Source: Patescibacteria group bacterium
GTDB lineage: Bacteria; Patescibacteriota; Minisyncoccia; Phycocordibacterales; Phycocordibacteraceae
Assembly: GCA_019752595.1 (NCBI GenBank)
Contig: JAIELV010000001.1
Span: forward strand, 682,394 to 726,239
Reading direction: 5' to 3'
DNA length: 43,846 bases
Each line of letters opens with the position of its first letter. Within the stretch, counting starts at the first letter, position 1. This document shows, piece by piece, positions 15,587-21,253 of this stretch. The notes beneath the pieces were generated by a model. It saw nothing but the letters and a program-made list of their open reading frames with translations, was not told the DNA's origin and searched no databases. Made by a program: the position numbers and the translations under genes.

Positions 15587-15597
15587 GTTGATTCAAG

Positions 15598-15670
15598 TCC
15601 GCCCGGCAGGGCTCGAACCTGCGACCTCGTCCTTAAAAGGGACTCGCTCTACCAACTGAGCTACGGGCGG
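15598..15670 (-). tRNA. tRNA-Lys (anticodon TTT)
   Basis: Cloverleaf on minus strand; acceptor CCGCCCG/CGGGCGG, loop CTTTTAA; CCA not encoded. Confidence 0.97.
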
Positions 15671-15743
15671 GAGTGAGAAGGAAAATGGCGACTCGTCGAC
15701 ATTTTCTTCAAACGACCGCACGGAAGCTGTTGCTTACGGGCGG
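15671..15743 (-). repeat. tRNA-Lys 5' module: minihelix (15716-15743), AAAATG hairpin (15682-15705), 13-nt leader (15671-15683)
   Basis: Minus strand CCGCCCG-TAAGC-AACA-GCTTC-CGTGCGG; AAAATG..CGAC-GA-GTCG..CATTTT; TTCCTTCTCACTC abutting tRNA. Confidence 0.7.
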
Positions 15744-20837: not shown

Positions 20838-20965
20838 AGCAAAAGCATAGCACTAGCTTTTTGTGCTCTCGGTGCACGTATGCCGATTCGCGGCGCTCGG
20901 AAATGAAGCCCTCAAGGAGTTTTCTTTTTTATATCTGCTTCACCGAACAAGCTCGGTTCGCAGTC

Positions 20966-20999: not shown

Positions 21000-21016
21000 C
21001 TCATTTCTCTCGCTTG

Positions 21017-21088
21017 TGCTCTCGGTAGGAATCGAACCTACATTACAAGCTCCGCAAGCTTGCGTCCTATCCATTGAACGACGAGAGC
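21017..21088 (-). tRNA. tRNA-Arg (anticodon GCG)
   Basis: Acceptor GCTCTCG/CGAGAGC, anticodon stem CAAGC/GCTTG with loop TTGCGGA, T-arm GTAGG-TTCGATT-CCTAC. Confidence 0.95.
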
Positions 21089-21253
21089 GAGTGAGAAGGA
21101 ACATGAAAATGCTAGCATTTTCATACTCTTCGAGCGAGCTTTCGGTAGCTTTAGCTACAGAGAGCGACTCTTTCTTCGAGCGAGCTTTCGTTGGTATAAA
21201 CCAAAGAGAGCGAACTCTTTAACGAGCTTTCGGTAGCTTTAGCTACAGAGAGC
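21089..21253 (-). repeat. tRNA-Arg 5' module: three minihelices (21138-21165, 21184-21211, 21226-21253), palindrome 21103-21124, 13-nt leader 21089-21101
   Basis: Minus strand GCTCTCT-GTAGC-TAAA-GCTAC-CGAAAGC (x2) and GCTCTCT-TTGGT-TTAT-ACCAA-CGAAAGC; ATGAAAATGCTAGCATTTTCAT; TTCCTTCTCACTC. Confidence 0.8.

Follow-up and report, generated by a model that had tools for sequence, protein, structure and literature searches.

A stretch of 43,846 nucleotides from a Patescibacteria group bacterium (family Phycocordibacteraceae; assembly GCA_019752595.1, contig JAIELV010000001.1, positions 682,394 to 726,239), referred to here in its full length as the window, carries palindromic leaders directly in front of its genes for tRNA-Arg(gcg) and tRNA-Lys(ttt). 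These leaders are best read as miniature non-autonomous palindromic insertion elements targeting the 5' ends of tRNA genes, a reading to which we assign a probability of roughly 0.65. In this bacterium and its relatives, roughly 20–25% of tRNA genes have one. Comparisons between sites and between genomes show insertion with duplication of the start of the target, an intact tRNA downstream, serial arrays, tRNA linkage of the hairpin families that were tested, and an inverted copy matched to each site. The leaders constitute a new-looking class of tRNA-targeted palindromic insertions.

The leaders follow a common plan, X-hp1-X'-foot-hp2-foot-tRNA, in which X (M5) corresponds to the first 7–8 nucleotides (nt) of the adjoining tRNA, X' (M3) is the reverse complement of X, hp1 and hp2 are palindromic hairpins, and A5 denotes the start of the tRNA itself. 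The first hairpin, hp1, usually reads T-AAGC-loop-GCTT-T; hp2, which is palindromic and variable, has TCRCTC and CTCRYTC as its feet. Both hairpins vary between leaders yet remain paired. The insert measures about 70 bp and holds no gene. We curated 34 leaders, with 24 acceptor sequences, in five genomes of the genus, namely the genome of the window itself (G000) and G002, G005, G006 and G009. All 40 tRNAs of G000 and most of those of the sister genomes G002, G005 and G009 were read, and genome-wide statements are based on searches together with individually read stretches. In G000, a matched X/X' pair (≤2 mismatches) occurs at 9 of the 40 tRNAs, versus 0.9% of mismatched tRNA-upstream pairs. 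BLAST searches with a leader picked up those of other tRNAs, both in G000 (Arg-CCT, Met, Leu-UAG and Glu) and in sister genomes, and every match at E < 0.01 was a tRNA leader.

Empty and Filled Sites at tRNA Genes

Precise empty and filled sites with near-identical flanks were found at four tRNAs when the sister genomes G005 and G009 were compared: tRNA-Arg(tcg), tRNA-Trp and tRNA-Ala(cgc) are filled in G005, and tRNA-Gln(ttg) is filled in G009. In the empty state, a promoter-like region lies directly before the tRNA; in the filled state, the shared flank leads into a duplicate of the tRNA start, after which come hp1-X'-hp2 and the whole tRNA. This comparison identifies M5 as the former tRNA start. 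The insertion point usually lies right after U8 and sometimes in the D-loop, as at tRNA-Gln(ttg), where the duplicated stretch comprises the first 20 nt of the tRNA and ends in the D-loop. The other junction falls at tRNA nucleotide 1. Among the leaderless tRNAs of G000, G002, G005 and G009, many empty sites show a -10-like box about 9–12 nt before nucleotide 1, so close that their primary leaders are probably a few nucleotides long.

Arrays of units with different hp2 hairpins at one and the same tRNA, seen at tRNA-Lys(ctt) of G009 and at tRNA-Ile of G178, show serial insertion. One hp2 family gave 10 exact-pattern matches in the genus (in three genomes), each of which has a tRNA downstream in the same orientation. 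Nine of these matches are leaders that end where a tRNA begins, or tandem copies of such leaders; the tenth is part of an apparently older and decayed insertion in front of tRNA-Lys(ctt). The elements also occur in multiple near-identical copies per genome, as expected of miniature inverted-repeat transposable elements or REP-like sequences. On these sequence comparisons, mobility of the leaders is well supported, and two origins proposed in an earlier sequence-only reading of the window, acceptor-targeted mobile palindromes and recombination footprints, gain support from the empty sites. As a separate observation, an apparent 5' half of a tRNA-Lys, with its D-arm interrupted by a member of the CTCGGACG hp2 family, is present in G000 (L227/L024) as a relic 38 nt upstream of the working tRNA-Lys(ctt).

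Replication errors alone, with template switching at tRNA genes and later repair perfecting the palindromes in the absence of any mobile element, could yield a similar arrangement, for two successive foldback copies would leave X-hp1-X'-hp2-X, and quasi-palindrome correction would keep X' matched. Such errors do not account for the recurrence of hp1 (AAGC..GCTTT), the feet (TCRCTC/CTCRYTC) and whole hp2 families at unrelated tRNAs, or for the regular junctions (tRNA nucleotide 1 and after U8) and the tRNA-linked matches, and we regard this account as very unlikely.

An Inverted Copy Matched to Each Site

The arm X' corresponds closely to the tRNA next to which it stands. Compared with the reverse complement of the 5' acceptor strand, it has on average 1.06 mismatches for its own tRNA and 2.98 for the others. 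Summed over the 34 leaders, the own-acceptor mismatches amount to 36, versus 78 in the lowest of 20,000 permutations; the p-value of this test should be taken as indicative, since the leaders include related sequences. Both expectations set out beforehand by the sequence-only reading were borne out, in that the outer 7-mer tracks the adjacent acceptor far above shuffled expectation, and the hairpins of the sister genomes are placed non-randomly, directly upstream of tRNA genes. Furthermore, hp2 hairpins that are 80–93% identical stand, within G000 and within G002, at tRNAs with different acceptors, each accompanied by a local X'. At tRNA-Arg(cct) and tRNA-Met of G000, for example, 88% of hp2 is shared and the acceptors differ at 4 of 7 positions, with each X' exact for its own tRNA. 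X' therefore follows the site and not the hp2 lineage, and the copy at the right end is likewise the local tRNA start at every site. In the tRNA-Ile array of G178 (L199), the X' of the oldest unit (unit 1), CTTTGCC, pairs without a mismatch with GGCAAAG, the diverged X of the unit that follows, which indicates that X' and the following X changed together.

At 16 acceptor positions that are not Watson-Crick pairs, X' is the complement of the 5' strand in 13 cases and a copy of the 3' strand in three. The 5' strand was therefore the source of X', which is no remnant of a tRNA 3' end. A truncated or shrunken tRNA copy was rejected because the 3' arm is not identical to the 3' acceptor strand (13/16 follow the 5' strand). 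The related notion of a tandem tRNA duplication whose copy was reduced to the acceptor stem draws on the resemblance of M5 and M3 to the two acceptor strands; it is extremely improbable, given the same 13 versus 3 and given empty sites at which hp1/hp2 sequence was inserted, not lost from a duplicate. The tRNA acceptor/T-arm minihelix that had been recognized in the hairpins of the window thus holds as a resemblance and fails as an identity, since the second arm reverse-complements the 5' acceptor strand and does not copy the 3' one, and the likeness is explained by the displaced tRNA start together with its inverted copy. An inner stem that is replaced yet still paired had also been read as a covariation-like sign of structural constraint; between the mimic arms after insertion, covariation is weak, with four compensated double changes versus 40 one-sided ones, and M5:M3 covariation was accordingly dropped as proof of RNA function.

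The possible consequences for the tRNA were addressed by partition-function folding of leader plus tRNA, in which co-transcriptional folding, modification and processing are ignored. The predicted mean acceptor-helix probability was 0.95 for the tRNA alone and 0.40 with the native leader; it fell to 0.16 with X' scrambled (p = 0.0016), and was 0.39 when M5 was scrambled instead and 0.64 when both arms were. In silico, the displaced tRNA start is thus harmful and is partly offset by X'. All five genomes tested have RNase P RNA, in four of them below the curated cut-off, which would allow ordinary trimming of a long leader; a missing RNase P was therefore rejected as the reason for special leaders.

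The drop from 0.95 to 0.40 might also be expected of a regulatory or processing leader RNA, in which X' would pair either with M5, letting the tRNA fold, or with tRNA nucleotides 1–7, leaving it misfolded, and would thereby act as a switch on maturation. Both pairings are available in most leaders, and hp1 and hp2 keep their pairing as they vary. Of the 12 informative cases, in which M5 and the tRNA start are not identical, X' matches the tRNA start more closely in eight. Conservation of an M5:M3 hairpin is consequently not clear, and the result leaves room for an X':tRNA pairing with an RNA or guide role. We nevertheless consider a regulatory leader quite unlikely, since the presence of the leader differs at the same tRNA between sister species, the leader-carrying tRNAs form an assorted set that changes from genome to genome, and a leader also precedes a decayed tRNA-Arg (L030). 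The suggestions of the sequence-only reading that the hairpins serve as RNase P or EF-Tu decoys or as processing elements found no support, most tRNAs having no leader and sister species differing. The decayed gene, tRNA-Arg(tct) of G005 (L030/L073), has lost its proper 3' acceptor strand and retains a leader with an exact X' (CAGGGCC).

The Leaders in the Window and Across the Order

In the window, tRNA-Arg(gcg) occupies 21088-21016 on the minus strand, and its nucleotides 1–7 (21088-21082, GCTCTCG) are the X copy used by the mature tRNA. Three X-hp1-X' units of 28 nt each precede it on the same strand: a distal unit at 21226-21253 (GCTCTCT GTAGC TAAA GCTAC CGAAAGC), a middle unit at 21184-21211 with a different inner stem, TTGGT/ACCAA (GCTCTCT TTGGT TTAT ACCAA CGAAAGC), and a proximal unit at 21138-21165 that is identical to the distal one. 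These hairpins had been noticed from the sequence alone, and their sequences and the 6/7 matches of each outer 7-mer to the tRNA-Arg acceptor strands are as had been claimed. Their motif, CTCTCT-N8-24-GAAAG, lies above chance, with three occurrences in the window versus 0.33 expected and none of 100 shuffles reaching three. Of the proposed stem of 7 + 5 bp, the hairpin itself stands, but a perfect 7-bp outer stem on the tRNA strand does not, owing to C.A and U.C mismatches that leave 3+2+5 pairs (−9.9 and −8.6 kcal/mol); as plus-strand RNA the same hairpins pair better, with 6+5 bp (−13.7 and −12.0 kcal/mol).

Two further features went unnoticed in that sequence-only reading. The hp2 with its feet (TCGCTC - GAAGAGTATGAAAATG..CATTTTCATGTTCCTTC - TCACTC) extends over 21089-21137 on the minus strand, abuts nucleotide 1 of tRNA-Arg, and has related copies upstream of other tRNAs in the same genome; across the genus, the leaders of tRNA-Arg(gcg) carry differing hp2 families. 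The second feature is the leader of tRNA-Lys(ttt) at 15671-15743, all on the minus strand, with X-hp1-X' at 15716-15743 (CCGCCCG TAAGC AACA GCTTC CGTGCGG) and hp2 with feet at 15671-15715, in front of the target tRNA at 15597-15670. A scan of the window with Rfam gave no family above the gathering score except tRNA. On the far side of tRNA-Arg, its 3' end ACCGAGAGCACAA (21014-21026) recurs at 20861-20873 on the minus strand, 140 nt beyond the tRNA, with sequences like hp2 feet between both copies; this repeat is possibly a mirrored insertion on the 3' side.

A short hp1 pattern matched 21 of the 299 genomes searched in the order. On inspection, true leaders were found in G178 (family f82, with a perfect GCGCGTG/CACGCGC), in G016 (f1, another genus) and in G151 (f42), while in G248 (f72) a mirrored leader lies 3' of a tRNA-Gly; most other inspected matches have no tRNA at the junction and look like chance. 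On the 3' side of tRNA-Ile in G178 (L199), the T-arm/acceptor 3' half is likewise repeated in both inverted and direct orientation (CAGGGATCGAACC ... TCCCTGGCACGCGCAC), mirroring the 5' leaders. A strict hp2 pattern searched across GTDB matched 51 stretches, of which the leader architecture was present only in Patescibacteria/Parcubacteria records belonging to this genus, and the rest look like chance matches. A phage origin was rejected, for viral contigs yielded three stretches with one identical match and no tRNA at the junction, and a second pattern yielded none. A literature search returned no earlier description of such elements in the papers searched.

Possible Mechanism, Related Systems and Significance

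Insertion near the tRNA 5' end leaves the original first ~8 nt upstream as M5 and a complete tRNA downstream. According to the proposed mechanism, X' may arise as the element inserts, through foldback copying of the 5' end of the target, with hp1 as the hairpin turn on the U8 side and hp2 as that on the nucleotide-1 side. By pairing with the displaced tRNA start, X' could then keep it from competing for the 3' acceptor strand of the tRNA and so help the host to tolerate the insert. That mobile palindromes targeting tRNAs write an inverted copy of each new target as they insert, neutralizing the displaced start so that the host tRNA survives, and do so through an undescribed enzyme or host pathway, is a tentative proposal that we place below even odds.

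Among known systems, IS608 of the IS200/IS605 family appears closest in anatomy. Its cleavage sites pair with guides 5' of the base of each end hairpin, its left cleavage site stays in the flank, changes in the guide reset its targets, and its right-end sequence belongs to the constant element (PMC5934647). The leaders have the same order of parts, with hairpins that carry, 5' of the foot, a short sequence complementary to both junctions, and with the left copy in the flank. One form of the mobile-element reading would be single-strand transposition as in IS200/IS605 or RAYT systems, with M3 as a DNA guide 5' of the hp2 foot that pairs with cleavage sites M5 (left flank) and A5 (right end) as placed from the junctions, and Y1 proteins are encoded in 9 of the 10 genus genomes searched. 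However, the complementary stretch here is 7 nt long, not 4, and specific to each tRNA, the ~70 bp insert has no gene, and the right end is not constant and free of target duplication but is the local tRNA start. A guide and right end borne by the element would not explain similar hp2 hairpins with a different local X' and X at each tRNA, and no Y1 HUH transposase (PF01797, E ≤ 1e-3) was matched in the complete and element-rich genome G002. This variant is rather unlikely.

Several points weigh against the insertion reading and its templating step. The absence of Y1 from G002 is one of them; in addition, neither a reverse transcriptase nor an IS110 DEDD transposase (PF01548) was matched in the five element-bearing genomes, and Cas1 had no match in the genomes searched, findings by which a retro-mechanism with a genome-encoded reverse transcriptase, an IS110 bridge RNA and Cas1-type integration were rejected. 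The empty/filled pairs are compatible with gain as well as with precise loss, and wherever tRNA-Arg(gcg) was seen in the genus, it bore a leader and so offers no empty site. Templating at insertion is read from end states. The predicted folding benefit is partial, at 0.40 with the leader versus 0.95 without it and 0.64 once both arms are scrambled. X' is moreover a competitor for the 5' strand of the tRNA, and its better fit to the tRNA start in 8/12 cases counts here as well.

Other comparisons are more distant. REP/REPIN sequences with RAYT are, like the leaders, short, palindromic and non-autonomous, with families of near-identical copies in one genome; REPs are presented as interspersed extragenic palindromes with tags such as GTAG (PMC3733652, PMC2817692, PMC3116915), unlike the present elements, which sit at tRNA 5' ends, duplicate their target and carry an inverted target copy. 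Mitochondrial double-hairpin elements (RHE) share double hairpins, tandem insertion, presence that varies between close relatives and an unsettled mobility mechanism, while the available part of their description mentions neither tRNA-start targeting nor a target-templated arm (PMC2800124). By analogy only, CRISPR arrays also grow by serial insertion beside one constant gene end, each time duplicating the short sequence next to it; here, in contrast, no Cas1 was found, the units are hairpin families and not foreign spacers, and the duplicated sequence is a tRNA start.

In standard transposition schemes, the element is constant and the target is only directly duplicated, and an insert that bears a fresh inverted copy of its landing site does not fit them. 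If templating at insertion is true, it would imply an unrecognized step, such as foldback synthesis or hairpin capping, in bacteria with tiny genomes, and the leaders would provide a readable record of insertions at tRNA genes. The conserved-looking leader hairpins before tRNAs in this group may be insertion scars and not regulators.
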